64,000 bases of DNA from Bacteroidia bacterium (GTDB taxonomy: Bacteria; Bacteroidota; Bacteroidia; 2-12-FULL-35-15): positions 62,001 to 126,000 of the forward strand of contig JAURXZ010000042.1 in the NCBI GenBank assembly GCA_030654175.1, written 5' to 3'. The position numbers were made by a program, and so were the translations under genes. The notes beneath the pieces were generated by a model. The model was given only the letters and a program-made list of their open reading frames with translations. It did no database searches and was not told the DNA's origin. This document shows positions 17,047 to 62,464 of the stretch, piece by piece (the first letter of the stretch is position 1; each line of letters starts with the position of its first letter).

Positions 17047-17122
17047 TTAATTCCTATTATATTTTAAAATTTTAAGTTCGAATTTTTTTAATGCAAAAGC
17101 CCTTGATGGCAAGATGGATGCT

Positions 17123-17219
17123 GCGTTAGGGATTGCAACGTAAATCCTTCTCCGATTTTTATCGGAGAAGATTGAAGTGAAAAGCCCGCCCCTTTCTCTT
17201 TAGAAAGGGGAACGCCCAA
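17123..17219 (+). repeat. Two-hairpin extragenic repeat, copy A
   Basis: Conserved start GCGTTAGGGATTGCAACG, first hairpin (stem CTTCTCCGAT/ATCGGAGAAG, ten pairs, loop TTTT), conserved linker GATTGAAGTGAAAAGCCC, second hairpin (CCCCTTTCT/AGAAAGGGG, nine pairs) and conserved end AACGCCCAA. The other copies are at 18754-18846, 26577-26671 and 28905-29006. It lies just after the end of the DEAD-box helicase gene. Confidence 0.85.
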
Positions 17220-18753: not shown

Positions 18754-18846
18754 TTGGGCGTCACACTTTCTTAAAAGAGAAAGTGTCGGGCTTTTCGCTG
18801 CAATCTTTTCTAAAAAGAAAAGGATTTACGCTGCAATCCCTAACGC
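18754..18846 (-). repeat. Two-hairpin extragenic repeat, copy B, overlapping a stop codon
   Basis: Read on the minus strand, it has the same layout as copy A: GCGTTAGGGATTGCAGCG, a seven-pair first hairpin (CTTTTCT/AGAAAAG), GATTGCAGCGAAAAGCCC, a second hairpin with ACACTTTCT/AGAAAGTGT (nine pairs) and end GACGCCCAA. The second stem differs from the CCCC/GGGG stems of the other copies at paired positions, so pairing is kept. The first bases overlap the last codons of the L,D-transpeptidase gene and supply its TAG stop. Confidence 0.85.
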
Positions 18847-20555
18847 AAATAATACAGTGATTTCAACATCTTTTCATCCTTTTTATATACGTCAATAAAA
18901 AAGAATAGTTCATCATTATCATCCACTTCGTTAGTAAAGTAATTGATGTATATCGGGATCGGATGTTTGATATAAACATATTTCTGTTCTTCTTTTAAAA
19001 AATCCATTTTCAGTGAATCTAACGGATAGTTCTTTTCATCATCACGAATAAGGAATTTGGCAAAATCAATAAACCTTTCCAATCGCACACAGCCATGACT
19101 CATGGCACGCATTTCCCGCTTAAACAACCTGCGATTGTCAGTATCGTGCAAATAAACGCCATATTTATTTTCGAAATTAAATTTTAAAATACCCAATGAA
19201 TTTTCATCACCCATCCGTTGACGCAGTTTAAAAGGAAAATAATTTTTATTGTATTTTTTCCAGTTAATAGGTGTTTCAACCACCCTGTTGCGATAGTCAA
19301 GCACTTCAAAATTTTTCCTGCGTAAATATGTGGTATCACGTTTTAAGATAGGTAAAATCTCTTTAGTAGCGATACTAAGCGGAACAGTCCAATAGGGATA
19401 TATTAAAAAATATCGAATGGTGCTTTTCAAGATAGGTGTTTTATGGTCGGGTTGACCAACAATTACGCGGGATTTCATAACCAATGTATCGGCTTCAACC
19501 ACGCGCATTTCATATTTCGGAATATTTACCCAAACAAATTGTTTTTCATAAGGAGAATAATAATTTCGCCAACGCTCCATATTCATTTGAATCTGGTGCA
19601 CATAATCCCGCTTTGAACGCTGTAAGGCTTTAAAAGTAAGTTTTCCTATTTTTCCATCTTCTGTGAGATTATGACGGCACTGGAAATTTTTGATGGCTTT
19701 TACCAACTTTATAGAATCGGAATCTTCAATGATTTCTGCATAATCATGGCTGGCGATCAGGCGTTTTTTTAAGCGTTCGTTAAAAGTGGTACTGTCGGAT
19801 TCGCGGGTAGCAAGGCTATCCCATTCAGAATCTCTGAACTCGAATTTAAAATTTTTCAGAGCAAATTTCAAAGCCTGATATTGACTATTTTGGGGCTCTA
19901 AGGATTCTATTGACGAGCGAATTTTATTTTGTTTGATCGCATCATTTAAAACAGCAACCAGATCGGTTTCAATCTCGCTTTCACCTATGGTACGTGGCAG
20001 TATAAATCTGGCAATTTTCCATTCGCGGACCAAACTATCTATATTCAACCTTCCTTTATTAACATGAACAGCAAATGTAAAGAAGGCATCTGTTAAAAGC
20101 ATATCTACTTCTGAAATTTTTACCGCATCATATTTTTTTGTTTTACTGTCTCTTTCTTTTTTAATCAAACTTTCAATTTTACTGAAATGATAATCACTTG
20201 AGATCAATCCGTAGTCGTCTGAATTTTTTAATAGTGAGAAAAGGGAATCGCTTTGCGCACTGTGTTTACCTTTGTCGCTCCAAATAACATTGAACTTATT
20301 TATTTTGTAAAATTCAATAATTAATTTGGTTGCAAAAAGACTGTCATCAGCGATAAAAAGAGTTTTTAAAGTGTCGAAATTACTGAGTTGTTTCTTTATC
20401 AATTCAACAACTTCTTCATTCACATATTCAGGTTCCGCAACCAACACCACAGGCTTCGTTTTTTCCGGAGAACACCTGCTGAATGTAAATACCCAGAATA
20501 CGGCTAATAAAAGAAAATGGAAGTATTTTTTCAAAGGGAAATTATTATTTATCAA
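18840..20555 (-). CDS. Murein L,D-transpeptidase (YcbB-like) with peptidoglycan-binding domain
   Basis: A cell-wall enzyme that joins or remodels peptide stems through 3-3 cross-links. A hydrophobic export signal comes first (KKYFHFLLLAVFWVFTFSRC; the Cys could be lipidated). A scaffold domain follows, then a peptidoglycan-binding helix set near 290-315 (FQCRHNLTEDGKIGKLTFKA), and the YkuD catalytic domain with VIVGQPDHKTP and the HGCVRLER cysteine motif near 485, all intact. Size (571) fits YcbB. No ATG is available at the front; TTG 20555 or TTG 20534 must serve, the latter giving the neater signal peptide MKKYFHF. Its stop codon lies inside repeat copy B. Divergent from polA. Confidence 0.9.
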   Translation of the reverse strand: MINNNFPLKKYFHFLLLAVFWVFTFSRCSPEKTKPVVLVAEPEYVNEEVVELIKKQLSNFDTLKTLFIADDSLFATKLIIEFYKINKFNVIWSDKGKHSAQSDSLFSLLKNSDDYGLISSDYHFSKIESLIKKERDSKTKKYDAVKISEVDMLLTDAFFTFAVHVNKGRLNIDSLVREWKIARFILPRTIGESEIETDLVAVLNDAIKQNKIRSSIESLEPQNSQYQALKFALKNFKFEFRDSEWDSLATRESDSTTFNERLKKRLIASHDYAEIIEDSDSIKLVKAIKNFQCRHNLTEDGKIGKLTFKALQRSKRDYVHQIQMNMERWRNYYSPYEKQFVWVNIPKYEMRVVEADTLVMKSRVIVGQPDHKTPILKSTIRYFLIYPYWTVPLSIATKEILPILKRDTTYLRRKNFEVLDYRNRVVETPINWKKYNKNYFPFKLRQRMGDENSLGILKFNFENKYGVYLHDTDNRRLFKREMRAMSHGCVRLERFIDFAKFLIRDDEKNYPLDSLKMDFLKEEQKYVYIKHPIPIYINYFTNEVDDNDELFFFIDVYKKDEKMLKSLYYLR

Positions 20556-26510: not shown

Positions 26511-26576
26511 AGCTTGATTCATAAAAATAGTTAGTAAGCAAAAAAAATATAATCGAGACCTTTCATTTTAAACCCT

Positions 26577-26671
26577 GCGTTAGGGATTGCAGCGTAAATC
26601 CTTTTCTGTTTAGAAAAGATTGAAGCGGAAAGCCCGCCCCTTTCTCCTTTTAAAGAAAGGGGAACGCCCAA
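26577..26671 (+). repeat. Two-hairpin extragenic repeat, copy C
   Basis: GCGTTAGGGATTGCAGCG, first hairpin CTTTTCT/AGAAAAG with loop GTTT, linker GATTGAAGCGGAAAGCCC, second hairpin CCCCTTTCT/AGAAAGGGG, end AACGCCCAA. It lies upstream of the 25476 gene and downstream of hmgA. Confidence 0.85.
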
Positions 26672-28888: not shown

Positions 28889-28904
28889 GTTTATGGGTAA
28901 TGCC

Positions 28905-29006
28905 GCGTTAGGGATTGCAACGTAAATCCTTCCCTTCCGCTAATTAGCGGAAGGGAAGATTGAAGTGTAAAGCCCGTCCTTTCTTTTTCAGAAAGGGAAC
29001 GCCCAA
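28905..29006 (+). repeat. Two-hairpin extragenic repeat, copy D
   Basis: GCGTTAGGGATTGCAACG, first hairpin with a 13-pair stem (CTTCCCTTCCGCT/AGCGGAAGGGAAG, loop AATT), linker GATTGAAGTGTAAAGCCC, second hairpin TCCTTTCT/AGAAAGGA, end AACGCCCAA. It sits between the converging TatD and DUF2723 genes. Confidence 0.85.
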
Positions 29007-48069: not shown

Positions 48070-49158
48070 ATGGATAAGCAAAATCAATATTTTCCTCAGT
48101 CGGTGCCGCACCCCGGAACAACACTGGAAGAAAAATTGGAGGAAATGGGAATGGGGCCAAAGGAGTTTGCCATTCGTACAGCCAAGCCGGAGAAAACAAT
48201 TATTGCCATTATCAAAGGCAATAGCTCCATAACTCCCGATATGGCGATGCAGTTTGAAAATGTTACCAAAATACCTGCTCATTTTTGGATGAATCACCAA
48301 TTGGGATATGATGAATATTTAGCACGTGAAAAACATAAATCAGTTATAGAAGAAGCGGTAGCGTGGGCAAAACGATTTCCAGTTACAGAAATGGTTAAAA
48401 AAGGATGGCTGCCCCAGTTGACTACTATTCAGGAAAAAGCAGCTGCTATGTTATCTTTCTTTGGCTTTGCAAGTCATGCAGCATGGGAAGACTATTATTT
48501 CAAACAACAACTAAAAGTTGCTTTCCGAATTTCGTTGGCTCACACAAAAGAACCTTATGCAATTTCTGCATGGTTGAGAAAAGGTGAATTGCAGGCCGCA
48601 GAACTTTCAGCAAAAAATTATTCTGATAAAGATTTCAAAGATGCTTTGCCAGAAATAAAATCGGTAATGGCAAAACATCCAAAAGATTTTTTCAAACAAT
48701 TACAGGAAATTTGTTTGGAAGCCGGAGTGAAAGTGGTGCATACTCCTTGTTTACCAAAAGCTCCAATTAGTGGATCTACAAGATGGGTGAATGACACTCC
48801 CCTTATTCAATTAACAGGAAGATTTAAGCGCAACGATAGTTTTTGGTTTACTTTTTTCCATGAAGCAGGGCACATACTTTTACATGGTAAGAAAGACATT
48901 TTCCTTGAAAAGGTTGATTATCCCGATTACGACAAAGAAAAGGAAAAACAAGCGGATGATTTTGCCATTAAATGGACACTGACTGAGGAAGAAGAAAAGG
49001 AAATTATTAACGCTGCACCTTTAAATGAATCCATCATTAAAGCTTTTGCAAAAAAATTCAATACACACCCTGCAATTATCATTGGCAGATTGCAGTATGA
49101 TAAATTAATTCCATATTCATTAGGAAGACATTTTTTTGAACCAATTGATTTCTTTTGA
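48070..49158 (+). CDS. HTH-ImmA/IrrE metallopeptidase, HigA-like antitoxin
   Basis: A 362-residue fusion. The N-terminus (about 10-80) is a HigA-like helix-turn-helix with VPHPGTTLEEKLEEMGMGPK then EFAIRTAKPEKTIIAIIKGN. The C-terminal domain is an ImmA/IrrE-type zinc peptidase with FHEAGHILLHGK near 262-273 (HEAGH zinc motif) and an acidic third ligand in EKEKQADDFAIKWTL. ImmA enzymes cut phage or element repressors when DNA is damaged; a HigA fused to ImmA could therefore release or degrade the partner toxin block on signal. The stop codon TGA overlaps the TTG start of hsdR by three bases. Confidence 0.88.
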   Translation: MDKQNQYFPQSVPHPGTTLEEKLEEMGMGPKEFAIRTAKPEKTIIAIIKGNSSITPDMAMQFENVTKIPAHFWMNHQLGYDEYLAREKHKSVIEEAVAWAKRFPVTEMVKKGWLPQLTTIQEKAAAMLSFFGFASHAAWEDYYFKQQLKVAFRISLAHTKEPYAISAWLRKGELQAAELSAKNYSDKDFKDALPEIKSVMAKHPKDFFKQLQEICLEAGVKVVHTPCLPKAPISGSTRWVNDTPLIQLTGRFKRNDSFWFTFFHEAGHILLHGKKDIFLEKVDYPDYDKEKEKQADDFAIKWTLTEEEEKEIINAAPLNESIIKAFAKKFNTHPAIIIGRLQYDKLIPYSLGRHFFEPIDFF

Positions 49159-52100
49159 AACCCATCACCGAAAATATCATAGAAGAATCAGCGATTGAAC
49201 TATTGCAGTCGCAAGGATGGGAATATGCCAATGGCAAAGAACTTTCACCTGAAGGTTTATTTTGCGAAAGGGAGAATTACCAACAAATTATCCTTACTAA
49301 TCGCTTGAGAAATGCCATTGCAAAAATAAACCCTCATATACCGGCAGAGGCTCAGGAAGCAGCAGTTCAAAAAGTATTGCGTATTTATTCGCCAGTATTG
49401 TTGCATAACAATGAGGAGTTTCACCGTTTGCTTATAGAAAAAGTGAAAATCCCTTATCAGCAAAATGGTTATGAGCGCAGCTATGAAGTGGCTTTGATTG
49501 ATTTTGAAAACACAAGTAACAATCAATTTCTTATAGTCAATCAATACACCATCATTGAAAACAATCAGAATAAACGACCTGATGTTTTGCTTTTCGTAAA
49601 CGGTATTCCACTGGTAGTAGTTGAACTAAAAAATGCTACTGATGAAAACGCCAATATTCTGAGTGCCTACAAACAAATTCAAACATATAAAGCCATCATT
49701 CCAAGTTTGTTTACATACAATGCCATCTGTATTGTTTCAGACGGACTTGAATGTAAAGCAGGAAGCGTTTCAGCCGACCTAAGCCGATACATGACATGGA
49801 AAACATCGGATGGATTGAAAGAAGCATCACGATTCAAACCGCAAATGGAAACCTTGCTAAAAGGAATGTTGCAGCCTTCTACGCTTTTGGATTTGGTTCG
49901 CAATTTTATTGTGTTTGAAAAAACAAAAAAAGAAGATGCTGAAACAGGATTGATACAAATTTTCACTGAAAAGAAATTGGCTGCCTATCATCAATATTAT
50001 GCAGTAAATAAAGCGGTACAATCTTCTATTACAGCTTCGGGAGTGAACGGAGATAAACGAGGTGGTGTAGTGTGGCATACACAAGGTTCCGGCAAAAGTT
50101 TGAGTATGGTATTCTATTCAGGCAAGCTCATCACGGCTCCAGAAATGTGTAACCCTACTATTCTTGTTATTACCGACCGCAATGATTTAGATGACCAATT
50201 GTTTGACACTTTTGCCGCATCTGTTCAACTACTCAGACAAGAGCCGGTGCAAGCTGAAAACAGAGAGCATTTGAAAGAATTGTTGAAAGTGGCAAGTGGT
50301 GGAATTGTTTTTACAACCATTCAGAAATTTATGCCCGAAGGCAACAAATCAATTTACGATCAGCTCTCCGACAGAAAAAATGTTGTAGTGATTGCTGATG
50401 AAGCCCATAGGACTCAATACGGATTTGAAGCAAAATTAGTTGATGAAAAAGATAAAGAAACCAAGGAAATAATAGGCAAACGCATTGCTTACGGTTTTGC
50501 AAAATACATGAGGGATGCTTTGCCGAATGCCACCTATATAGGTTTTACAGGAACTCCCATTGAAGGAACGGATGTAAATACTCCTCAAGTTTTCGGAAAT
50601 TACATTGACCGTTATGATATTAAAGATGCGGTTACCGATGGGGCAACGGTAAGAATATTTTATGAAAGTCGTTTGGCAAAAGTGAATTTAGACGAGGATG
50701 GCAAACGCTTGATTGAGGAATTTGATGCGGATTTAGAGCAGGATGAAGAAGTTACCGAAAAACAAAAAGCAAAAGCTAAATGGACAAAACTGGAAGCGAT
50801 TGTTGGAAATAAAGAAAGAGTAAAAAACCTTGCAAATGATATTGTCACTCATTTTGAAAAACGCCAAACAGTTTTTGAAGGCAAAGCATTGGTTGTAGCA
50901 ATGAGCCGTAGAATTGCAGCTGACCTTTTTAAAGAAATTATTGCACTTCGTCCTGAATGGTATAGCAATGATGTGACAAAAGGTGTGATTAAAGTAGTAA
51001 TGACCACCAACAGTGCAGATGGTCCCGAAATAGCAAAACACCATACTACTAAACAACAGCGTAGAGATTTATCCGACCGAATGAAAGACCCGAATGATGA
51101 ATTAAAAATTGTAATCGTTCGGGATATGTGGCTCACAGGATTTGATGCTCCTTGTTTGAATACGATGTATGTGGATAAGCCAATGCGAGGCCATAACCTG
51201 ATGCAAGCAATAGCAAGGGTAAATAGGGTTTTTAAAGACAAAACTGGTGGATTGGTAGTTGATTATTTAGGTATTGGTATTGATCTTAAAAAAGCACTTT
51301 CGTTTTACAGTGAGGCTGGAGGAAAAGGTGATCCTGCCGAAAATATTTCAAAAGCTGTTGAAGTGTTTATGGAAAAAATGGAAGTGGTGCAGCAAATGTT
51401 CAATGATAGCAGCACAACACGAGAAGATATTTTGGTAGAAGAGCCAGAAGCCTATTACGAAAACAGTTTAAAATTTAATTATAAAAGATTTTTTGCGGTT
51501 GATTCAAGAGAAAAACTCTCTATCATCCTACAAGCTGAAGAACATATTTTTGGATTGCAGGAAGGCAAAGAAAGATTTATTCGGGAAGTGAGTTTATTAA
51601 GTCAGGCACTATCTCTTTGTATTACAAGAGACGAAGTTCAAATTCATTTGCCTGAGGTGGCGTTTTTTCAGGCTGTGAAAGCACGATTGGTAAAATTTGA
51701 GGGGACAGGCTCAGGCAAATCAGATCTTCAAATTGAGACCGCTATTAAGCAAATTGTTGATGAAGCATTAAGTTCCGATAAAGTAATAGACATTTTTGAA
51801 GCAGCCGGAATAGATAAACCTGAGATTTCAATTTTATCAGATGAATTTCTTTTAGAAGTAAAAGACATGAAGCATAAGAATATTGCTTTAGAATTACTTA
51901 AGAAGGTATTGAACGATGAAATAAAAACCAGAGCTAAAACAAACCTTGTAAAGAGTAAGAAATTATTAGAGATGCTGGAAGGAGCCATAAAACGCTACCA
52001 AAATAACTTACTGACAACTGCTGAAATCATTCAGGAACTCATCAATATAGCAAAGGATATTAAAGAAGCCGATGCAGAAGGCGAAAGGCTTGGTTTAACT

Positions 52101-52376
52101 AAAGATGAAGTTGCTTTTTATAATGCCTTAGAAGTAAACGATAGTGCTGTGCAAGTTTTGGGTGACGATCAGTTAAAAGAAATAGCAAGAGAAATTACAG
52201 ACAAAGTAAGAGCTAATGCAACAATCGACTGGACAATCAGAGAGAGTGCAAGGGCAAAGTTGATGGTGATCGTAAAGCGAACACTCACTAAATGGGGCTA
52301 TCCTCCGGATAAACAACAAAAAGCAATTGATACGATATTGAAGCAGGCAGAATTAATGGCTGATAACTTGGTGTAA
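49155..52376 (+). CDS. hsdR: Type I restriction endonuclease subunit HsdR
   Basis: A 1073-residue restriction and translocation subunit. The N-terminal nuclease domain has RPDVLLFVNGIPLVVVELKN at about 140-159 (D and E-x-K of the PD-(D/E)XK site). The SF2 motor follows: Walker A HTQGSGKSLSMV near 310, VVIADEAHRTQYGF near 413, GFTGTPIEGTD near 465, and ARVNRVFKDK near 690. The C-terminal helical part binds HsdM. The start is TTG 49155, inside the stop of the ImmA-type gene (TTGA), so translation is coupled; ATG alternatives are far downstream. hsdM and hsdS lie 7-10 kb upstream with cargo in between. Confidence 0.96.
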   Translation: MKPITENIIEESAIELLQSQGWEYANGKELSPEGLFCERENYQQIILTNRLRNAIAKINPHIPAEAQEAAVQKVLRIYSPVLLHNNEEFHRLLIEKVKIPYQQNGYERSYEVALIDFENTSNNQFLIVNQYTIIENNQNKRPDVLLFVNGIPLVVVELKNATDENANILSAYKQIQTYKAIIPSLFTYNAICIVSDGLECKAGSVSADLSRYMTWKTSDGLKEASRFKPQMETLLKGMLQPSTLLDLVRNFIVFEKTKKEDAETGLIQIFTEKKLAAYHQYYAVNKAVQSSITASGVNGDKRGGVVWHTQGSGKSLSMVFYSGKLITAPEMCNPTILVITDRNDLDDQLFDTFAASVQLLRQEPVQAENREHLKELLKVASGGIVFTTIQKFMPEGNKSIYDQLSDRKNVVVIADEAHRTQYGFEAKLVDEKDKETKEIIGKRIAYGFAKYMRDALPNATYIGFTGTPIEGTDVNTPQVFGNYIDRYDIKDAVTDGATVRIFYESRLAKVNLDEDGKRLIEEFDADLEQDEEVTEKQKAKAKWTKLEAIVGNKERVKNLANDIVTHFEKRQTVFEGKALVVAMSRRIAADLFKEIIALRPEWYSNDVTKGVIKVVMTTNSADGPEIAKHHTTKQQRRDLSDRMKDPNDELKIVIVRDMWLTGFDAPCLNTMYVDKPMRGHNLMQAIARVNRVFKDKTGGLVVDYLGIGIDLKKALSFYSEAGGKGDPAENISKAVEVFMEKMEVVQQMFNDSSTTREDILVEEPEAYYENSLKFNYKRFFAVDSREKLSIILQAEEHIFGLQEGKERFIREVSLLSQALSLCITRDEVQIHLPEVAFFQAVKARLVKFEGTGSGKSDLQIETAIKQIVDEALSSDKVIDIFEAAGIDKPEISILSDEFLLEVKDMKHKNIALELLKKVLNDEIKTRAKTNLVKSKKLLEMLEGAIKRYQNNLLTTAEIIQELINIAKDIKEADAEGERLGLTKDEVAFYNALEVNDSAVQVLGDDQLKEIAREITDKVRANATIDWTIRESARAKLMVIVKRTLTKWGYPPDKQQKAIDTILKQAELMADNLV

Positions 52377-53122: not shown

Positions 53123-53159
53123 AACACTAAAATTGATGGTATTAAAAACTATCTGTTTT

Positions 53160-53426
53160 ATGAAAAAGAAATTGACCGTAACTAAGAAGCAAAAGCCTAC
53201 GGAGGTTCTATTATTAGGAAAAAGAATTAAACAATTGCGTCAGAATAAAGGGTATTCCTCCCAGGAAACTTTTGCGTATGATAATGATTATACCCTAAGC
53301 TATTATTCACGAATTGAAAGAGGAGAAGATATTAGATTTACAAGTTTAGTAAAGGTATCCAAAGCACTTGGTGTGGACTTGGAAATGTTATTTTCAGAAG
53401 GATTTGAAGGTTTAAACGATAAATAA
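53160..53426 (+). CDS. Xre family helix-turn-helix regulator
   Basis: An 88-residue regulator. After a basic arm (KKKLTVTKKQKP) the HTH_3 domain reads LLLGKRIKQLRQNKGYSSQE, then FAYDNDYTLSYYSRIERGED and LVKVSKALGVDLEMLF, the standard Cro/CI five-helix order. ATG 53160 is preferred over an upstream in-frame codon at 53133, since that would overlap the operator-like repeats. It probably represses itself and the divergent 52521 gene through the GTGCTAA array. Confidence 0.88.
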   Translation: MKKKLTVTKKQKPTEVLLLGKRIKQLRQNKGYSSQETFAYDNDYTLSYYSRIERGEDIRFTSLVKVSKALGVDLEMLFSEGFEGLNDK

Positions 53427-53560
53427 TTTTTTTTTAATAGCTAAAAATAATTGAAGGGAATGATACTTGTTAGCTAAACTTTGTTGGAGAAATATAATTG
53501 AAACTGATAAAGATTTAGTTCTTAAAATTGAATATTGAAATTTTCCTAAACATTCCTACA

Positions 53561-53842
53561 ATGCATAAAAACGCAACACTTATCCATGATGTATCCTATG
53601 AAGAACTTATATCTTTATTTGAAGGCTTGCAAAATCAAATAACCGAATTAAAACAAAAATTTGAGCCTAAGACTCCTACTGAGTATCTAACCCGAAATGA
53701 ACTTGCTGAGTTACTTAAATGTGATATAAGCACAATACACAATTGGACCAAGAAGGGAAAACTAATATCTTATGGGATCGGAAACAGAGTTTATTATAAA
53801 CGTAATGAAGTTGAAAAAGCTCTTTTACGATTTAACCAATAA
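53561..53842 (+). CDS. Excisionase-like helix-turn-helix protein (HTH_17), second copy
   Basis: A 93-residue protein. A coiled helix first (YEELISLFEGLQNQITELKQ) then a MerR/Xis-type winged helix: PTEYLTRNELAELLKCDIST, IHNWTKKGKLISYGIGNRVY, YKRNEVEKALLRF. The layout is the same as in the 34614 protein, so the island carries two such factors, which could mean two merged elements. ATG 53561 gives the natural start; the codon at 53528 would add 11 odd residues. It converges on the reverse-transcriptase set. Confidence 0.85.
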   Translation: MHKNATLIHDVSYEELISLFEGLQNQITELKQKFEPKTPTEYLTRNELAELLKCDISTIHNWTKKGKLISYGIGNRVYYKRNEVEKALLRFNQ

Positions 53843-54001: not shown

Positions 54002-54694
54002 CTAACATACATACTTACTTATTAAGTCAAAATCGTTTTCAAGTTTAAAAGAAAATTTTATTTTTTGCATGTCCAATGATTTTTTGTTTCCAATATGTTT
54101 TTCATTTTCAAAAGTTGCGATCCAACAGTCGAAAACATCTATTTTATTTTTATTAAATTTTGAGTAGCTGAATACAAGAAATTTTTTGTCTCCAATATTT
54201 TTGTAATAAAGAGGGTATGGAACCTTGTTCTTACTGAAGCCTCCCGCAATGTCAACACTTTTACTAAACCCCCATTTGTCAAATTTTGAAAGAAGATGTT
54301 GAGCTTCATAAATTGGGTCAGTTTGCAAACGAAGCTTATGAGTTTCATCTTCCGTTAAAGTGTCGGCTAGATAATGGTCAAACAGTCCATTCTCTTTGAT
54401 TCTATTTTTCATATAATACCATTCAAGAATATCTGAAGAATCAATGTTAGCCGGAATATTTATAAAACTTTTGGTTTTAAGCATATTCTTAAATGCGTCT
54501 TTAATGGACGATAAGCTTACTAATGTTAAGCCCATTTTGTCTCTATGGAAATAAATTCGTTTATTTTTCAGTTTGGTCTTGCTGTAACCAAGTTCATGTA
54601 GTAGTTTGTAAATATTTCCTTCTTTCTGAGTGATTTTTATTCGACCATTCTTTTGTCTAGCAAAGGTCATGAAGTCGTTTATGTCTCTTGTCAT
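54002..54694 (-). CDS. Unknown protein following the reverse transcriptase
   Basis: A 230-residue protein in the RT set. The N-terminus GNIYKLLHELGYSKTKLKNK, then RIYFHRDKMGLTLVSLSSIK DAF resembles the small first domain found in some Bacteroidota phage and element primase-helicases (weak likeness). The rest includes LLSKFDKWGFSKSVDIAGGF and a strand-rich end (FLVFSYSKFNKNKIDVFDCW). No motif is known to me. It starts 58 bases after the RT stop, same strand, and is likely cotranscribed, so it may be a partner or substrate-handling protein of the RT. Confidence 0.6.
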   Translation of the reverse strand: MTRDINDFMTFARQKNGRIKITQKEGNIYKLLHELGYSKTKLKNKRIYFHRDKMGLTLVSLSSIKDAFKNMLKTKSFINIPANIDSSDILEWYYMKNRIKENGLFDHYLADTLTEDETHKLRLQTDPIYEAQHLLSKFDKWGFSKSVDIAGGFSKNKVPYPLYYKNIGDKKFLVFSYSKFNKNKIDVFDCWIATFENEKHIGNKKSLDMQKIKFSFKLENDFDLISKYVC

Positions 54695-54752
54695 TGGGTT
54701 GATTTTATGTTTTTTTGTCTTTCTCAGAACGTAACAGTCATAATGCGCAACA

Positions 54753-56558
54753 TTACCTCCCTAGAACCTGATAATAATAGCTGAATGGTTTGTTGAAATG
54801 AATTAGTTGTCTAGGCTTAGGTTCTATTTTTTCGCTACCTTCAATAACAGGTTCCTTTAAATCTTTTAAAAGGTCATAATAAAGCTTATTCCTATTCCTG
54901 TCAAGTTGCTTAATTTGCTGAACAGAATATTTATTCATGGTCAATGCTTTAAACCCATTTTTCCAACATAAATCGTTAGAAACTGTATCAAAATTTTTAA
55001 TGGTCACTCTGCCAACCGACATACCAACAAGTCTATGAATTGCAGATTCAGTGACCGAACCTTTGGTTTTCCTCATGCCATATTTAACTGCTTTTCTTAT
55101 TTCGTCAATCACTTCCTCTTGCTTATTTAGCTCTTTATGAAGTGATTTTTTTCTAACACGAATATGTCCTTCATGGTGTAACTCATATCCAACGAAGCCT
55201 ATCCAAGGAAAGCCCTCATCATTAATTGAAGTCCATCTGTATGGCCCTTTTGATTTTCCTTTCCAAAAAGGTCGTAAGGTTTTGGTTGGTAATAGATTTG
55301 ATGTTTTCTCCCTATCAGTTATTAAGTTTGAATTGAAAGGGTGAGGAACTAACTTTAAACCTTTCAATGCTTCTAAATAATTATCTTTTGCAAGTTTACA
55401 AATATCAAATTCGGGATGAATAATTAGCATATCATCGCAGAAACGAACATAAAACACGTCTGTTTTTAAGACTTCCTTATCTGCAAAATTCATAACTATA
55501 TTAGCAATAAGGCCTGACAATGCGCCTCCTTGAGGAACACCAATTCTTTCTTCATCTATGTTATTATAATAATCTAGTTCCTTAAATCTATTTTCTATCC
55601 ATTCAAATTCTCCATTTGGTATTTTATAGCTTGCCCAATACGCCAAATCTGTTTTTGATGGCGCATTTTTATTAAAGGCGTAGCAGTCAAGGAATTCAAA
55701 GAATAGATGAGAAGATTTCTGAAAGTCTAAATTCGGAAAATCAATTTTTGCTAGTTCAAGCAGGTCGTTAAAGAGTTCTTTAATAATTTTATGGTTTACT
55801 GAATCATAAAACTTTTCCATGTCACATTCAACAACCCACAAAGGTTCATTTTGATGTTTCATTCTATAGTCCAAAACATCTTTTATACAATCATGGTGTG
55901 TAAGTACTGCGGTATTCTCTTTATTCTTTTTGGAACGGAACGCATACGAACAATCCTCAAAATAATTGTCGAATAGTCTTGTTAGATATTTGTTTGTGAG
56001 GCTTAGGATTATTCGGTCTTTTAACGTAAACAGTGAAATAGGCCGGCATTTATTAATCCCTTTTATATTGATTTCATCCTTCAATTTGGGATATAATACA
56101 GGAGAGTTAACCTTATATTCACCGCTTGAAATTGAATGTTGAATATCCAGAATGAATTTGTCAAGTTCAACAAGCCAAGGCTCATTTGGGGATTTCTTTC
56201 TGAAAAGTTTAATTGTTTTTATTAAAGAATAGTAATTTCTGTCACTTGAAGAGAGTGAATTATTCGTTTTCTTATCTTTCCTAGATTTACTTCCAAGCAC
56301 GACCCATTTCTTTCTGCTTGGGAAAAGTTTATTTAAATCATTTAAAAACTCGTTCTGATACTTTAAAAACTCATTTGAAGAGCCCTCATCAACTTCAGAA
56401 CACTTTTTTTTATCATTTACATGATAATTATATTTATTTGAAGCTGTTAAAAGATGAATAAGGTGCATCTTGTTTCGACTTTTCGCAACTTTAGCTCGTA
56501 GTTTACATAAGTATGAAACTATTGCATCATTGGAAAAATATTTTTCAAATTCTTTCAT
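54753..56558 (-). CDS. Reverse transcriptase (unclassified, FCDD catalytic box)
   Basis: A 601-residue RNA-dependent DNA polymerase. Fingers motifs: KCRPISLFTLKDRIILSLTN near 170-189 and FEDCSYAFRSK near 200-210. Palm A VVECDMEKFYDSVNHK near 242-257 (D246), motif B RIGVPQGGALSGLIANIVMN near 338-357, and motif C VRFCDDMLI near 371-379, where FCDD replaces the usual YADD; both aspartates are kept. The downstream FVGYELHHEGHIRVRKKSLH near 455-474 and a helical C-terminus stand where group II introns carry maturase. No HNH nuclease and no intron RNA are visible. It fits the broad defence-type (UG/Abi/DRT) RTs better than introns or retrons. Own promoter and structured leader. Confidence 0.9.
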   Translation of the reverse strand: MKEFEKYFSNDAIVSYLCKLRAKVAKSRNKMHLIHLLTASNKYNYHVNDKKKCSEVDEGSSNEFLKYQNEFLNDLNKLFPSRKKWVVLGSKSRKDKKTNNSLSSSDRNYYSLIKTIKLFRKKSPNEPWLVELDKFILDIQHSISSGEYKVNSPVLYPKLKDEINIKGINKCRPISLFTLKDRIILSLTNKYLTRLFDNYFEDCSYAFRSKKNKENTAVLTHHDCIKDVLDYRMKHQNEPLWVVECDMEKFYDSVNHKIIKELFNDLLELAKIDFPNLDFQKSSHLFFEFLDCYAFNKNAPSKTDLAYWASYKIPNGEFEWIENRFKELDYYNNIDEERIGVPQGGALSGLIANIVMNFADKEVLKTDVFYVRFCDDMLIIHPEFDICKLAKDNYLEALKGLKLVPHPFNSNLITDREKTSNLLPTKTLRPFWKGKSKGPYRWTSINDEGFPWIGFVGYELHHEGHIRVRKKSLHKELNKQEEVIDEIRKAVKYGMRKTKGSVTESAIHRLVGMSVGRVTIKNFDTVSNDLCWKNGFKALTMNKYSVQQIKQLDRNRNKLYYDLLKDLKEPVIEGSEKIEPKPRQLIHFNKPFSYYYQVLGR

Positions 56559-56590
56559 CGTTCAAATAAAAGGGAAGGGGTTCCTGTTAA

Positions 56591-56604
56591 TGGCCTTGCG
56601 GCCA
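56591..56604 (-). ncRNA. GCAA-tetraloop hairpin in the RT leader
   Basis: On the minus strand, TGGCC-GCAA-GGCCA makes a five-pair stem closed by a GNRA tetraloop; flanking T:A and G:U pairs can extend it. It lies between the -7 element and the RT start codon, within a leader of roughly 50 bases. Whether it is part of a separate RNA that the RT uses is not known. Confidence 0.45.
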
Positions 56605-56612
56605 CATATTGA

Positions 56613-56620
56613 CAAAGATA
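56613..56620 (-). promoter_or_regulatory. -7 promoter element (TATCTTTG) of the RT gene
   Basis: Minus-strand exact TAnnTTTG match between the primase-like gene stop and the RT start, so the RT (and the hairpin) could be transcribed apart from the primase-like gene. Confidence 0.5.
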
Positions 56621-56636
56621 CTGACATATAGTCGCA

Positions 56637-57752
56637 TCACCTTTTTAAGTCCTCTGGCAAGTGATTAGCCGTATTTGAGGATGAAACTTGCGATAGATTT
56701 CCATCTACCACCTCGGAACCCCTATCCCTTTGTTTTTTTGTTTTATATCCTTTTCCATTTGCAAAATAAACTATAGAGCTAAATTTTACTGCTCCGCTTC
56801 GTGATTCATAGCAATTAAGTAAAAAATTCCTACAGTTAATCTCATTATATTTTTCTTTATCCAGTGAACTAAGTTTTAAAAAACACTTCACACCCACATC
56901 ATAGGTAAATGTATTTGCAATAGCCATAGCTACTTTATACCATTCATCATACGATTGTGTAATTGAAAGTTTCTTTTTTTCAAGACATTTAATAATAGCA
57001 CTGATTGTATATCTGTCTCCCGGTTTGTTTCTATCCTTAGGATTATTTAGAGCATCTTGATTACTTGAATGATTAAGTTTTACAGTTTTGCTTTTCTCTT
57101 GATTTTCTGATACAGGAAATAAATCAATGTCATTTATTTCAAAAGGATTGTCTTCATTTTTTATAATTATTGTTGGGTCGTAAGAAAAAAAACAAAGCCG
57201 TGTTGTGTCGCTACCACTATTATCCAATTCAATATTATACTTCTCTTTGAAATGATTTGATAATTTTTGAAATGCGCTTTTGTGCGCCCTGTCAATATTG
57301 TCAATATTTAGTTCAAAATTGTATCGAAGCGAAACCAATCCTTTTAGGCCTTCTTTTGATGGTGATTCCCAATATACAAAAACATTTAGGTCGTTTTGAA
57401 AACAAGTTTTTGTTCTTGCCAATTCATTCGGATCAAGTTTATCAACATCTAAAACAATTATATAATTATAACTTTTGAGTTTTATTTTTTGCCTTTCTCC
57501 ATAAAATGTTCCGCAAAATGTTATTGCTGGTAGTGTTCTTTTATGACTTGAATATTTTTCATTGTCGCCACTTTTTAGGAAGTCACGAAGATAAATAACT
57601 TGTTGTTTATGTTTAGTTGATTGAATTTCAAGCAATGTTTCATAAATGGTAAGTTCTTTTGATATGGAAGACCAAGTATTCGCCTGATATGAAACTCTTT
57701 TGTTTAGAACTTCTAGTTTAGAATTTAATAAATTTTGACCTTGAGTTTCCAT
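56637..57752 (-). CDS. Primase-like protein: VirE_N (BT4734-type) plus PriCT-2 domains
   Basis: A 371-residue protein. Residues about 50-200 match the BT4734/VirE N-terminal domain, a relative of archaeo-eukaryotic primases: TLPAITFCGTFYGER, YIIVLDVDKLDPNEL with D102 and D104 as metal-ligand candidates, SPSKEGLKGLVSL near 130-142, and DTTRLCFFSYDP near 182-193. Residues about 268-335 form a PriCT-2 domain (DEWYKVAMAIANTFTYDVGV). In Bacteroidota this pair usually precedes a helicase; here no helicase follows, and an RT follows instead. The protein could prime or extend DNA for the RT. Own -7 element; 78 bases to the RT gene. Confidence 0.8.
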   Translation of the reverse strand: METQGQNLLNSKLEVLNKRVSYQANTWSSISKELTIYETLLEIQSTKHKQQVIYLRDFLKSGDNEKYSSHKRTLPAITFCGTFYGERQKIKLKSYNYIIVLDVDKLDPNELARTKTCFQNDLNVFVYWESPSKEGLKGLVSLRYNFELNIDNIDRAHKSAFQKLSNHFKEKYNIELDNSGSDTTRLCFFSYDPTIIIKNEDNPFEINDIDLFPVSENQEKSKTVKLNHSSNQDALNNPKDRNKPGDRYTISAIIKCLEKKKLSITQSYDEWYKVAMAIANTFTYDVGVKCFLKLSSLDKEKYNEINCRNFLLNCYESRSGAVKFSSIVYFANGKGYKTKKQRDRGSEVVDGNLSQVSSSNTANHLPEDLKR

Positions 57753-57777
57753 ATAATTTTGTTGACCTCAAACTACG

Positions 57778-57785
57778 CAAAATTA
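57778..57785 (-). promoter_or_regulatory. -7 promoter element (TAATTTTG) of the primase-like gene
   Basis: Minus-strand exact TAnnTTTG match 25 bases before the start codon at 57752. Confidence 0.6.
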
Positions 57786-57847
57786 ACCTAGCATCTGATG
57801 TTTTTGTTTGTTATTTGTAGTTATTGTCGAATTACTGTCCTGTTTTT

Positions 57848-57866
57848 ACAATGGCACACAACGTTT
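57848..57866 (+). repeat. Cassette-type boundary motif, copy 1
   Basis: ACAATGGCACACAACGTTT, matched at 58687-58705 by ACAATGACGCATAACGTTT (16 of 19 identical, same orientation). An inverted ACAACG...CGTTGT nearby makes a hairpin. The two copies bracket the PIN gene. Confidence 0.6.
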
Positions 57867-57901
57867 GAAAGATTTATGCGTTCGTTGTTTTTTCTCCATC
57901 A

Positions 57902-58630
57902 CTATTTACCACGCATTAAGTCAGAATAACGTTCAGCTTCGTTTTCAAGTTGGTCATCTAACCATTCCTCAAAGTCTTCAAAAAGTTCAGGTGCAAGCTT
58001 CAATGCTTCGCCTAATTCTGTTACAGTTTTTAGTCTAATCGGGGCAAGTCCTTCAAATAAACTTTCATAAACTTTCTCTGTTTGCTTATCAATGAAGTCT
58101 TCTGGATTATTTGAAACATAAATTAAATCATATAGAAAGGGAATTGTGTTTTCTACAAACTCACAGATATTCCTCATAATTAAGGCATCATTATAGTTGT
58201 TTTTATTGTGCTGAAAGGGAGGGAGTTTATTAATTGCCAGTTCTGCGACAAATAATTTTTGATTTTCGGTTACAGGTATAATAGTACAAGAATTCATAAA
58301 TGCTTCAACTTCCTCAACTTTTGCCTCTGCTTTGGCTATTCTATTTGTTTCGTCTTTGTATTGTGAAATAGTTTCAAGATACTTTTCTTTCACTTCTCCA
58401 GAAAGATAATTAGATAATTTTAAAGCTGATTTATATTCATTTTTAATATTCTCTGTTAGATTCTTTATAGTCTTTGGTTTGTTTCTTTTCCATTCTAAAA
58501 GAATAACATCATTAATTATTACACGAATAAGATTTTCTTCCTTTACTTGCTTGAATTTATTCCAAAGTTCTAATAGATTATCGTTTGTTAGATATATCCA
58601 TATGTTTGAGTCTAAAGCTATATTTGTCAT
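57902..58630 (-). CDS. PIN-domain protein (DUF4935-like)
   Basis: A 242-residue protein with a PIN-type nuclease pattern. The first acidic residue is in MTNIALDSNIWIYL (D8), the middle acidic site in LLEWKRNKPK with IINDV, and the last pair in NNYNDALIMRNICEFV near 145-160 (D149) and IYVSNNPEDF near 173. PIN domains are metal-dependent RNases, often toxins or tRNA cutters. A long charged helix region (AEAKVEEVEAFMNS) is inserted, as in DUF4935 proteins. No antitoxin adjoins it. It is bounded by the two 19-base repeats, so it may be an independent cassette beside the RT set. Confidence 0.75.
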   Translation of the reverse strand: MTNIALDSNIWIYLTNDNLLELWNKFKQVKEENLIRVIINDVILLEWKRNKPKTIKNLTENIKNEYKSALKLSNYLSGEVKEKYLETISQYKDETNRIAKAEAKVEEVEAFMNSCTIIPVTENQKLFVAELAINKLPPFQHNKNNYNDALIMRNICEFVENTIPFLYDLIYVSNNPEDFIDKQTEKVYESLFEGLAPIRLKTVTELGEALKLAPELFEDFEEWLDDQLENEAERYSDLMRGK

Positions 58631-58686: not shown

Positions 58687-58705
58687 ACAATGACGCATAA
58701 CGTTT
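58687..58705 (+). repeat. Cassette-type boundary motif, copy 2
   Basis: ACAATGACGCATAACGTTT, with ACGTTGCG upstream (58672) able to pair imperfectly with CGCATAACGT. Between this and the 58932 gene are about 225 bases with no gene that can be supported. Confidence 0.6.
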
Positions 58706-59653: not shown

Positions 59654-62464
59654 CTAATTTATGATTATTTTACCCACAATGTTTTTGTTACTAAGGGTAA
59701 CAAGCTTTATAAAATATATCCCTTTTTGCTTTCCAGTAAAATCAACAATATTTTCCTGTGTGCCCGGTAAAACAGGTGTTGTAAAAACCACGCGTCCAAG
59801 CATATCATAAATATATAGGTCGGCAGGTTCTTCCTGATCAGTTTGTATAATAAATGTTCCGTTATTAGGGTTGGGGAAAACCTTAATTTTATCCTTATTT
59901 ATTGTTGCTGGTGCTGTACTGTTACTATGAATAACAAGGGCTCTTGTTTGATTAGTATCACAGGCTAAAACAAGTATGGGCTGTATTAAAGTATCTGATA
60001 AACCCGAAGTATCTGAGACAATAAGTGTTGCAGTGTACGCCCCGGGTTGATAATACGTTTTAGGATGGGCTAAAACGGATGTTGTTCCGTTGCCTAAATT
60101 CCATAAATAATTATACCGGGTGCCGTTATAGTCATCTTCATATACCCCGTTAAAAGCAAGAGTATCAGGACAAGCTATCGTATCTGTTTCAAATGTATCG
60201 TCATTATCAAAAGACTTGCTATCTACTAAATACATTTTGTAAGCATATTCACCTGCAACCTGGAACATATCCCATACATCCGGTTTTAATTTACCAAATA
60301 ATGTAGTTTTTTTTGTTTCAGTTGCATATAACGAAACGGAACCGGCATGAGGAACGCTGTACCACTCAATATCATATTTTGCCCTGTGATGCTGATACCA
60401 CACTTTCAAACCGTGTATTTCAAGTTTTTCGGACGAATTCACTGCAAGCGGGCTATCAGAACCGCATGGAGCCGTAATTCCGAAGTAATAGGAGAAATTA
60501 TGCACCCAGCCTAAAACTTCATTTAAGTTGTTGTTAATTAAAGAGTAACTTTCAATCCCCTTACCCGTATTGGCACTGGATGGTACATCAGTAAACCGTT
60601 GTGGCTGATATTGATTATTTTCGAAATCATGTCCGGAGATAAAACTGTTTAGCGCTGTAAAATTTTCTCTAAGGCTATTATTATTCCAATTCCACCAGTC
60701 TAAACCGGCACCATAGCTGTTCATAAATGCTGTTGACCAGAGCGCATTATGAAAATCCCAGTCGTTACAATTGGCTCTTAAACTTTTACCTTTATCGTCT
60801 CCCATTTCTTCCATAATATAAGGCTTATTGTAATAATCTAAACCAACAAAAGAATTATTACCATCACTTTCGCTAACCAATGTGTGGTAACGTACAAAAT
60901 TAATTTTAGCCTCCTTATCAATATTAGGATCAGAATCATAAGCACCATATCGATGCCTGCTCGTTATATCAAGTGATTGAGTGCTATAAGCACTGAACGC
61001 ATATGGCCCTGGATCACCGGCATAACTTGTAGTTACTAAATGATTATTATCGCCCAAAGTTTGTTTAATGTAATTTGCCATCATCTCATGCCAAACCATT
61101 ATTGCCATTTTATTTGCAAAGGTGGCGTAATCATCTACATTATCTACTTCACTAAATAGTTCATAAGCAGAAAGATTTGAAGAATAGCCCCATCTTGCGA
61201 TAATGTAACGCAATCGTCTTTTAAAATAATCCTGGGCTCCGGGATTAGTGAAAAAATCAACTGGGTTGTTGATTCCCTGAATAACATTTTGATTTCCTGT
61301 TTTATATGGGTTAAAGTTCCAGCCATAAATAGTGTCATTTATTCTATATTGGTCATGCAATTCTAAACAAAGATGTACGAATAAATTATCAGCATGTGCC
61401 TGTTCGAAAATTTTATCAAGCTCCCAAAGATGCCCTTGGCGATCATTATAATCTCCCATTTTCCCCCATTCTATTGCACCGCTCCATGGGGCTGGAATAA
61501 CACGTGCATAATTGCCCCCGTTAGTAGATATATTGTGTATATTAGCTTTTTGAATGGCATAACTCATTGGTTTTCCTGCAAACCACCGACCTTCAGAATC
61601 CGGCATCCAGTCGCTCCAGGCAACGTTCTGCCCGATAGCAAAAAAAGATTCCTGGGTTCCGCTAAATCTTAACTGGCGTCTATATTGTCCCACTTGTAAA
61701 TAACCTTTATTACCAGAAGTTTGACACAAAAAATTTAAAGGATTAACATTTAAAGTAGCACTGCCAGGGATAATTACATTAATTGAACAGGTCCAATTTC
61801 CGGCTTCTGTTGGAGCAAAGCGTATGCGCCAAGGATAGGGAGTGTGTTGGTCATCCCATTTACCTCCGGGATCTGTATTTGTTGAATTCAAATCTTCCAC
61901 GTAATCTATATAGTAGAATCCATAAACAACTTTTGTGGCTCCGCTGGGTGCTGTAAAAGTTGCTTCAATACTAACTGAATTCGGATCGTAAGGATTAATG
62001 CCCGTGTTAGGATTTAAAATATAATTATTAATCTGATCGGTAACAGCTTGCGGCAATTTTATTCCCATTTCAAATTTTTCGAATTTACCAACAAGTGCCG
62101 GGAAATTATTATCTTCCGGATTTATGATAACAACATCAAAGTCATTGGGAACAATCTGAGCATGAAAGTAACCATTTCCGGTAAATCCTGATGCAGAAAA
62201 TCCCGGGCGTAACACAATAGCTTCCCCTGCTTTAAAATCAACCTGTGCTGTTCCTGAAACGCTAAAAGTGCCTGCGCCATAAGGAGCACCAATTGAAGTA
62301 GGGTTAGCGTAAGTTTCACTACCGCTATTTATTCCATTGGGGTTATTATTTATATTTATCCCCGGCCAAGGAACCTGAGCTATAATACTTTGAGTATAAC
62401 AACTAATTACGACTATGAATAAGATACGGATAATAGGTCCTTTTATTTTAAATAAGCTAATCAT
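59654..62464 (-). CDS. DUF5060 glycoside-hydrolase-like protein with PKD and T9SS domains
   Basis: A 936-residue secreted protein. The signal peptide (IRILFIVVISCYTQSIIAQ) is followed by a region shared with Bacteroidota surface proteins (INPEDNNFPALVGKFEKFEM), a DUF5060 sugar-binding fold (SIEATFTAPSGATKVVYGFY), then a TIM-barrel catalytic-type region: GGNYARVIPAPWSGAIEWGK, LFVHLCLELHDQYRIND, YELFSEVDNVDDYATFANKM (a possible acid/base Glu) and YIMEEMGDDKGKSL (a possible nucleophile Glu). A PKD domain (YNLLWNLGNGTTS-like, near 790) and a type A T9SS domain (VFPNPNNGTFIIQTDQEEPA) end it. Probably a surface polysaccharide-cutting enzyme. Between the fibre and barrel genes. Confidence 0.82.
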   Translation of the reverse strand: MISLFKIKGPIIRILFIVVISCYTQSIIAQVPWPGININNNPNGINSGSETYANPTSIGAPYGAGTFSVSGTAQVDFKAGEAIVLRPGFSASGFTGNGYFHAQIVPNDFDVVIINPEDNNFPALVGKFEKFEMGIKLPQAVTDQINNYILNPNTGINPYDPNSVSIEATFTAPSGATKVVYGFYYIDYVEDLNSTNTDPGGKWDDQHTPYPWRIRFAPTEAGNWTCSINVIIPGSATLNVNPLNFLCQTSGNKGYLQVGQYRRQLRFSGTQESFFAIGQNVAWSDWMPDSEGRWFAGKPMSYAIQKANIHNISTNGGNYARVIPAPWSGAIEWGKMGDYNDRQGHLWELDKIFEQAHADNLFVHLCLELHDQYRINDTIYGWNFNPYKTGNQNVIQGINNPVDFFTNPGAQDYFKRRLRYIIARWGYSSNLSAYELFSEVDNVDDYATFANKMAIMVWHEMMANYIKQTLGDNNHLVTTSYAGDPGPYAFSAYSTQSLDITSRHRYGAYDSDPNIDKEAKINFVRYHTLVSESDGNNSFVGLDYYNKPYIMEEMGDDKGKSLRANCNDWDFHNALWSTAFMNSYGAGLDWWNWNNNSLRENFTALNSFISGHDFENNQYQPQRFTDVPSSANTGKGIESYSLINNNLNEVLGWVHNFSYYFGITAPCGSDSPLAVNSSEKLEIHGLKVWYQHHRAKYDIEWYSVPHAGSVSLYATETKKTTLFGKLKPDVWDMFQVAGEYAYKMYLVDSKSFDNDDTFETDTIACPDTLAFNGVYEDDYNGTRYNYLWNLGNGTTSVLAHPKTYYQPGAYTATLIVSDTSGLSDTLIQPILVLACDTNQTRALVIHSNSTAPATINKDKIKVFPNPNNGTFIIQTDQEEPADLYIYDMLGRVVFTTPVLPGTQENIVDFTGKQKGIYFIKLVTLSNKNIVGKIIIN

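Follow-up and report, generated by a model that had tools for sequence, protein, structure and literature searches.

What does a reverse transcriptase (RT) gene do beside a primase-like gene, when the two lie close together in a bacterial genome with no obvious common purpose? The question is raised by a 64,000-nt stretch of contig JAURXZ010000042.1 from a Bacteroidia bacterium (positions 62,001 to 126,000), which we analysed as a whole and call the window, and which belongs to a 5.1 Mb Bacteroidota genome (G000). A sequence-only reading had singled out four minus-strand genes in it, for a PIN RNase, a primase-like protein without a helicase, a 601-residue RT with an FCDD box (residues 373-376) and a 230-residue protein of no family; the open reading frame (ORF) list places all four where that reading had put them, and Pfam agrees with its description of each. 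We find that the RT belongs to the family catalogued as UG39, that it is paired with a primase-polymerase (PrimPol) far beyond chance, and that a structured RNA, whose existence is supported by covariation, lies directly upstream of it; this RNA and its inverted repeat were not noticed by the earlier reader. We consider it rather probable that UG39 is a three-part candidate defence system, composed of the cis-encoded RNA, the PrimPol and the RT, in which self-primed DNA synthesis on the RNA template would be followed by second-strand synthesis by the PrimPol. The features concerned are these:

54753..56558, minus strand: UG39 reverse transcriptase, 601 aa (PADLOC RT_UG39, 666.5 bits; Pfam RVT_1, E 3e-19)
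55431..55442, minus strand: RT active-site box F373-C-D-D376 (C374, D375 and D376 in 63 of 63 aligned rows)
54771..54782, minus strand: S593-Y594-Y595-Y596 of the RT, candidate protein-priming residues (conservation in RT alignment A3)
56637..57752, minus strand: PrimPol-like gene with a BT4734-like_N archaeo-eukaryotic primase (AEP) domain and PriCT_2 (Pfam, E 6e-25 and E 4e-7)
57441..57449, minus strand: PrimPol motif D102-x-D104, taken as metal-binding (invariant in aligned partners)
56567..56731, minus strand: structured non-coding RNA (ncRNA) of about 165 nt, with terminal stem P1, hairpins P2, P3/P3b, P4 and P5, and a tentative pseudoknot (fold, covariation)
56715..56735, minus strand: 5' arm of the RNA terminal stem (inverted repeat I5, 21 nt, 81% complementary)
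56564..56584, minus strand: 3' arm of the RNA terminal stem (inverted repeat I5; compensatory changes in relatives)
56617..56628, minus strand: loop motif UAUGUCAGUAUC, proposed template or protein-binding site (conserved columns of RNA alignment A2)

After RT_UG39, the best-scoring PADLOC models for the RT are Drt2 (89.4 bits), a general RT model (88.2), UG17 (81.7) and Drt9 (76.2). Its relatives were studied as a set of 82 loci: the window, a plasmid, and the best 80 of the 133 relatives that a five-sequence alignment detected in genome_contigs; the set holds some near-copies (for example L011/L012, L035/L036/L049, L059/L061/L066 and L084/L085). The RT alignment, A3, contains 63 of the 74 listed RTs, near-copies and cut-off RTs being omitted, and all 63 also match RT_UG39 (E<=1e-60). 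The active site is intact throughout, with residue 373 a phenylalanine in 40 rows and a tyrosine in 23. Models of other RT classes remain below their cut-offs: the group II maturase model TIGR04416 gives 100 bits against 300 (NCBIfam), the NCBIfam Drt2 model 75 against 390, and the retron models St85 and TIR-retron 26.9 against 235 and 18.5 against 600 respectively. In a tree all 22 UG39 rows lie on one side of a branch (support 95/94), apart from the four group II rows compared, in keeping with the UG/DRT kind proposed from the sequence. The same tree places the single DRT2 row on the UG39 side and the UG17 row with the group II RTs; the references are few and long-branched, and too thin for the tree to fix the place of UG39 among the UG classes. 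Two DRT2 loci, L102 and L103, were dropped from it, having stops inside the matches and no open frame with an RT box, and L101, which had entered as a match to Drt9, falls among the group II RTs in the tree and probably belongs to them. The UG numbering itself reportedly goes back to Mestre et al. 2022 (10.1093/nar/gkac467).

For the predicted structure of the RT (pLDDT 91.1, pTM 0.90), the top Foldseek matches, over the whole RT, are DRT9-ncRNA complexes, and in VIA the model aligns with the DRT9 hexamer over residues 6-601 (Z 22.9, rmsd 3.8, 419 residues aligned), in a tie with RTs of diversity-generating retroelements and group II introns. By profile, the nearest solved RTs include group II and retron-type RTs, DRT9 (9ioa) and DRT2; no UG39 structure appears in the PDB lists. 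Relative to the window RT, those of L032, L033, L034, L038, L041, L046 and L052 have additional residues ahead of the C-terminal KPFSYY motif, and an insert is seen in that of L003.

The primase-like gene matches the PADLOC model RTasVirE-PriCT2 at 404.9 bits and the PADLOC PrimPol model at 95 bits, and its BT4734-like_N domain scores 88.5 bits against a Pfam cut-off of 22.4; the NCBIfam model PrimPol_Db gives 67.5 bits, under its cut-off of 200, and Pfam finds no helicase domain. In VIA the top rows for the predicted structure are PrimPols (Z 8.6, rmsd 13.9, 183 residues aligned), with Z 8.4 (rmsd 4.1, 141 aligned) for the PrimPol of S-2L and 5.8 for CAPP, and Foldseek returns no match under E 0.001. 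As the fold leans towards PrimPols and the Pfam, NCBIfam and PADLOC matches point the same way, we take the partner to be an AEP. Residues D102, D104, D177, D182 and R185 are invariant in all rows of the partner alignment (A6, 64 of the 72 PrimPol partners), and D102, D104 and D177 are presumably the catalytic triad of AEP primases.

A search with the partner profile finds a PrimPol gene upstream of the RT, at a distance of at most 400 nt, at 72 of the 82 loci, on the same strand in 55 and on the opposite strand in 17, so that the co-occurrence which the earlier reader wished to see counted is borne out for the primase. The linkage can be judged at 81 loci, L060 being ended by a contig boundary, and nine of these have an RT and no PrimPol. 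At seven of the nine (L071, L074, L078, L080, L081, L086 and L088) the five-base repeat TCGATTCGATT occurs in the 300 nt that precede the RT; it is absent upstream in L087 and L090. ATPase-like genes, recognized by reading from a GxxxxGKS motif, lie near the RT in L071, L074, L078 and L081. The cyanobacterial locus L090 (Dolichospermum) has TACCCTACCCTACC upstream of the RT (L090:5851-5864), partly inside the predicted terminal stem.

The region between the body of the PrimPol gene and the RT start is where the third component lies. The stretch 56559-56760 folds with a z of -5.2, and the same element stands just upstream of the RT at 21 loci, the window included, which together form alignment A2. 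Standard pairs occupy 79.8% of the cells of the A2 structure, compared with 45-53% in slid versions, a comparison in which the structure is favoured by having been drawn by hand from the fold of the window. Both sides have changed in 27 of its 47 pairs, where shuffled versions give a mean of 16.8 (0/500), and P3 is the cleanest helix, with 95% of cells paired and all five of its pairs changed on both sides. A covariance model built on these RNAs (R1), which scores the window RNA, one of its training members, at 156 bits, was run over 1.1 Mb from the 82 sources. Besides recovering all 21 RNAs on which it was trained, it picked up seven held-out ones at E<0.01 (L054, L023, L027, L050, L035, L036 and L049), each directly upstream of a UG39 RT; L035, L036 and L049 are near-copies of one another. 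Models of two other clades, run over 62 of the 82 sources, likewise found held-out RNAs: R2 those of L038, L036, L049, L046 and L025 (E<0.01) together with those of L044 and L052 (E<0.05), and R3 those of L076, L068 and L077, in both cases directly upstream of the RT. The clades are linked, since R1 matches L035 and L050 and R2 matches L025. The terminal stem is retained in these other clades, where 12 of 18 pairs in one alignment (8 RNAs) and 12 of 51 in another (6 RNAs) have changed on both sides, and the RNA is present also at loci where the PrimPol is divergent. Within its own genome the locus is the only strong R1 match, the next having E 0.11 (150 of 2575 first-look candidates scored), and Rfam has no family at gathering score at this position.

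A terminal stem near the RT start is predicted at 80 of 81 loci (L074 has none), and at 69 of these 80 it ends 0-31 nt before the start codon, the search having allowed up to 75 nt. Such predictions alone are weak evidence, since stems of at least 12 pairs, found at 66 of the 80 loci, are also given by 35% of shuffles and seen ahead of 74 of 300 other ORFs. The count of stem pairs was replaced as statistic by the longest uninterrupted helix, which exceeds the 95% shuffle level at 54 of 80 loci and the 99% level at 41, leaving 26 that fail; the picked stems are rough in length, and in the window and a few others they correspond to an outer stem and not to P1. Besides these stem counts, several further observations speak against the three-part interpretation. 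P4 and the pseudoknot are weak, with 40% and 60% of cells paired; the clade without a primase shows changes on both sides in 4 of 35 pairs (5 RNAs); R2 also has a reverse-strand match in one of its training RNAs (L034), and R3 also matches unrelated places in L031 (E 0.008) and L065 (E 0.03). The nine loci that have an RT and no PrimPol belong here too: whatever role the RT has at those loci, the PrimPol is dispensable for it. In the window, moreover, PrimPol residues 341-371 are read from the 5' half of the RNA. The PrimPol ORFs of relatives stop at various points, so that their overlap with the RNA varies, across the loci of A2, between roughly 10 and 100 nt; because of this variation, and because the AlphaFold pLDDT is below 50 for residues 347-371, residues 341-371 are probably a read-through tail and not a functional part of the protein. 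It follows from the overlap that part of the 5' arm of P1 is coding in the A2 loci, most of the remaining RNA being noncoding in most of them.

If the RNA serves as a template, the candidate site is the loop that precedes the last hairpin, where UAUGUCAGUAUC is near-invariant in the window's clade (the 21 RNAs of A2). In DRT10 the template is an A-B-A' repeat (PMC12632851). Short perfect repeats occur in this zone of some UG39 RNAs, GTATCAGTATCAGTATCA with a six-base unit in L021 and TCGATTCGATTCGA with a five-base unit in L071, and a five-base unit is repeated there also in L078 and L080. Direct repeats of at least 7 nt are in excess in the 3' half of the RNA (9 of 46, with 2.8 expected; 0/200), but a similar tendency shows in the 5' half (7, with 3.8 expected; 19/200). 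The flanks of the motif were compared in 31 hand-picked motif-bearing RNAs from the 81 loci: 28 share at least 3 nt, against 20.6 for shuffled letters (2/1000), but this is no excess over swapped flanks (25.7; 156/1000), and sharing of at least 4 nt, seen in 9, beats neither shuffles (8.2) nor swapped flanks (10.9). The strict test was thus negative for a template repeat defined by covariation of the flanks, and repeat addition is put forward as a hypothesis. The loop is a reasonable template candidate; the UAUGUCAGUAUC motif may on the other hand be a protein-binding site.

The C terminus of the RT suggests how synthesis on such a template might begin. S593 is present in 62 of the 63 aligned RTs and Y594 in 61, and every one of the 63 has at least one of the two. 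DRT9 primes itself through C-terminal tyrosines (PMC12483538) and DRT10 through a C-terminal serine or tyrosine (PMC12632851), and we infer that the UG39 RT would likewise prime from its own Ser593 or Tyr594.

Put together, these elements suggest the following scheme. The RT would bind the cis-encoded RNA of about 165 nt, start DNA synthesis on its own Ser593/Tyr594, and copy the short RNA loop into DNA, probably repeatedly as in DRT9 and DRT10; the copy of a window-type loop would hold the complement 5'-GATACTGACATA-3'. The PrimPol would then, probably, prime on the cDNA and copy it into a second strand. The nearest studied relative of the partner is DbCAPP, a Bacteroidetes VirE_N PrimPol that primes and polymerizes on DNA with dNTPs, and much more weakly on RNA (PMC8211822). 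If the PrimPol does make the second strand, the output would be double-stranded repeat DNA, such as DRT3 makes with two RTs, and this product would presumably act in phage defence, as the family and the neighbourhood suggest. We offer more tentatively, as a possibility that we would not ourselves expect to prevail, the specific form in which UG39 is a telomerase-like ribonucleoprotein, its RT repeatedly copying the RNA loop into protein-linked single-stranded repeats that the PrimPol turns into double-stranded repeat DNA.

Other assignments of the three parts have to be weighed against this scheme. The sequence-only reading had suggested that a primase-RT pair could dispense with a host primer; the PrimPol would then make a primer on the RNA or on a target nucleic acid for the RT to extend, as may happen in CRISPR-associated RT-PrimPol pairs. 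The tight pairing of the two genes would suit such a role, as would the RT-PrimPol fusions found in a CRISPR-associated CAPP (PMC8211822) and in DRT7 (PMC13213688); yet on RNA templates the activity of DbCAPP is far below that on DNA (PMC8211822), nine of the 81 testable loci manage without a PrimPol, and the conserved Ser/Tyr at the RT C terminus points to self-priming. Because UG39 RTs keep these residues as DRT9 and DRT10 do, we favour priming by the primase less, and regard it as possible but unlikely. We also think it improbable, though deserving of attention, that the RNA is a scaffold or regulator, with an RT that works template-free or copies some other RNA and with the GUCAGUAU loop as a protein-binding site. 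The negative outcome of the flank-swap test for repeats agrees with a scaffold, and the loop motif is near-invariant in one clade whereas DRT10 templates vary (PMC12632851); the DRT9 template, however, is likewise conserved (PMC12483538), the loop zone of some members (L021, L071) does contain perfect short repeats, and ncRNA templates are reportedly the rule among those Class 2 UG systems that have been studied to date (PMC13174585).

It is quite unlikely, in our judgement, that the stem-loop is an element of the mRNA only, controlling RT translation or marking a processing site, with no ncRNA released. Its place within the leader of the RT gene, with the predicted stem ending so close to the start codon at most loci, is what such an element would show, but its size, its multi-branch fold and its compensatory changes suit a DRT-type RNA better, and it is present where the PrimPol is divergent. 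Least probable by far is a four-gene unit that would also take in the PIN RNase and the 230-aa protein, as the sequence-only reading had entertained. These two genes are:

57902-58630, minus strand: PIN gene (ORF list; Pfam PIN_12, E 2e-21)
54002-54694, minus strand: 230-aa ORF (no family over the Pfam cut-off)

They share the strand of the RT and PrimPol genes and adjoin them in the window. Neither, however, is found at the other 81 loci within the stretches covered, which at some loci stop shortly downstream of the RT; a homologue of the 230-aa protein, 43-48% identical and in two neighbouring pieces, is found in a genome of the same genus (G006) in which no UG39 RT was found; and copies of a genomic repeat lie on both sides of the PIN gene. 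That repeat, ACGTTRTGYGYCATTGT, which the earlier reader had rightly seen around the PIN gene, has six copies in the genome at up to one mismatch and none in a reversed control, and two of the copies, at 57848-57864 and 58687-58703, flank the gene. Since within the stretches covered they are found in the window alone (1/82 each), the PIN and 230-aa genes are passengers. The pair of ACGTTRTGYGYCATTGT copies looks like a cassette boundary.

Elsewhere within four genes on each side of the pair, no third gene recurs beyond small groups of loci: four or five share type I restriction-like genes (by reading) and five a small helix-turn-helix (HTH) gene, and Pfam finds no SLATT match among eight window proteins. 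When 150 of the 318 eligible neighbours were scanned with PADLOC, 298 models were matched at E<=1e-10, with AriA, AbiLi, mad3, GajA and type I methyltransferases foremost; as the scan had no control, it indicates defence genes nearby and not an enrichment. L035, L036, L040, L042, L045 and L049 (Pedobacter/Sphingobacterium) have in common a pair of genes immediately upstream of the PrimPol, of which one is nucleotidyltransferase-like by reading. Beside the 230-aa gene the window has a plus-strand pair of small HTH genes (53133-53842; Pfam HTH_3 and the excisionase-type HTH_17), and small HTH genes of a similar kind lie near the RTs of L033, L039, L052, L068 and L079.

The UG39 RT is rare and patchy in distribution: among 36 genomes of the family to which the window belongs, the window's own is the single one that has it, and in the phylum it is present in 5 of 395, that genome included. 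A search of viral_contigs with the five-row alignment A1 gave nine RT matches, partial and weak, and the window RT as query found no relative there; a viral or phage origin was considered and set aside on these grounds, phages accounting for just two partial matches. Among plasmids a single record covers at least 80% of the RT. On plasmid pSpe of Thiospirochaeta perfilievii (L006:8001-9760) a BT4734-family gene adjoins a UG39 RT that is annotated as two ORFs. In the window, the region 32326-59000 resembles an island at a tRNA-Gln gene, followed by a tyrosine-recombinase-like ORF (32555, by reading), type I restriction-like genes and the UG39 locus; HsdR (Pfam) is encoded at 49155-52376 within this putative island. 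Exact repeats of the tRNA-Gln region in the rest of the window reach at most 15 nt, which is no evidence for an att site. The window also contains four Flavo-1 RNAs (Rfam RF01705), at 17121-17195, 18780-18854, 26567-26643 and 28897-28983.

While the gene family was already listed as a candidate for defence, the conserved RNA turns an RT-primase pair of unclear purpose into a testable three-part machine. If the proposed scheme is correct, the PrimPol represents a second source of the complementary strand for antiviral RTs, and UG39 would be a new natural example of DNA synthesis programmed by RNA, akin to telomerase-like mechanisms. A literature search by title and abstract, which took in few preprints and no subscription papers, gave no description of UG39 or its partner by name, or of this RNA; within that scope, neither the RNA nor the three-part architecture has been described. 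In myRT, VirE_N adjoins 45-46% of the UG28b RTs (PMC8934634). The DRT10 preprint raises the possibility of ncRNAs in other Class 2 UG systems, and neither 'UG39' nor 'primase' occurs in its text (PMC12632851).

Comparison with known systems shows what is shared and what is particular to UG39. The closest entry is that of PADLOC-DB, whose RT_UG39 and RTasVirE-PriCT2 models describe the identical RT and partner families; the RT-primase pair is therefore not new, and what stands of the earlier interpretation is an RT of the UG/DRT kind with a conserved primase-polymerase partner. The RNA, for which Rfam offered no family, is an addition to that entry. DRT9 (UG28), the best Foldseek match, resembles UG39 in its cis-encoded ncRNA and its C-terminal hydroxyl residues (PMC12483538), but it has a poly-U template where the 21 RNAs of the window's clade have UAUGUCAGUAUC, it lacks the additional PrimPol gene, and its model scores the UG39 RT at just 76 bits. 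DRT10 (UG17) shares with UG39 an ncRNA that adjoins the RT and whose fold combines a large central stem with side hairpins, together with the C-terminal Ser/Tyr (PMC12632851); it differs in having SLATT as its partner and not a PrimPol, and in its RT model (RT_UG17 at 81.7 bits compared with 666.5 for RT_UG39). As to its A-B-A' template, the UG39 RNAs gave a mild enrichment of direct repeats but no excess of shared flanks over swapped ones. In DRT7 (UG10) an RT is also combined with a primase-polymerase, but as a fused protein that is protein-templated according to the preprint (PMC13213688), whereas UG39 has separate ORFs and an RNA. The UG39 partner is similar in size to CAPP_B (DbCAPP), which is likewise of the VirE_N/AEP type and from Bacteroidetes (PMC8211822), although it falls below the PrimPol_Db cut-off and, unlike CAPP_B, is linked to an RT. 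Finally, DRT3 has, like UG39, two polymerases per system, one of them RNA-templated (PMC13174585), but there both are RTs, while UG39 combines an RT with a PrimPol.

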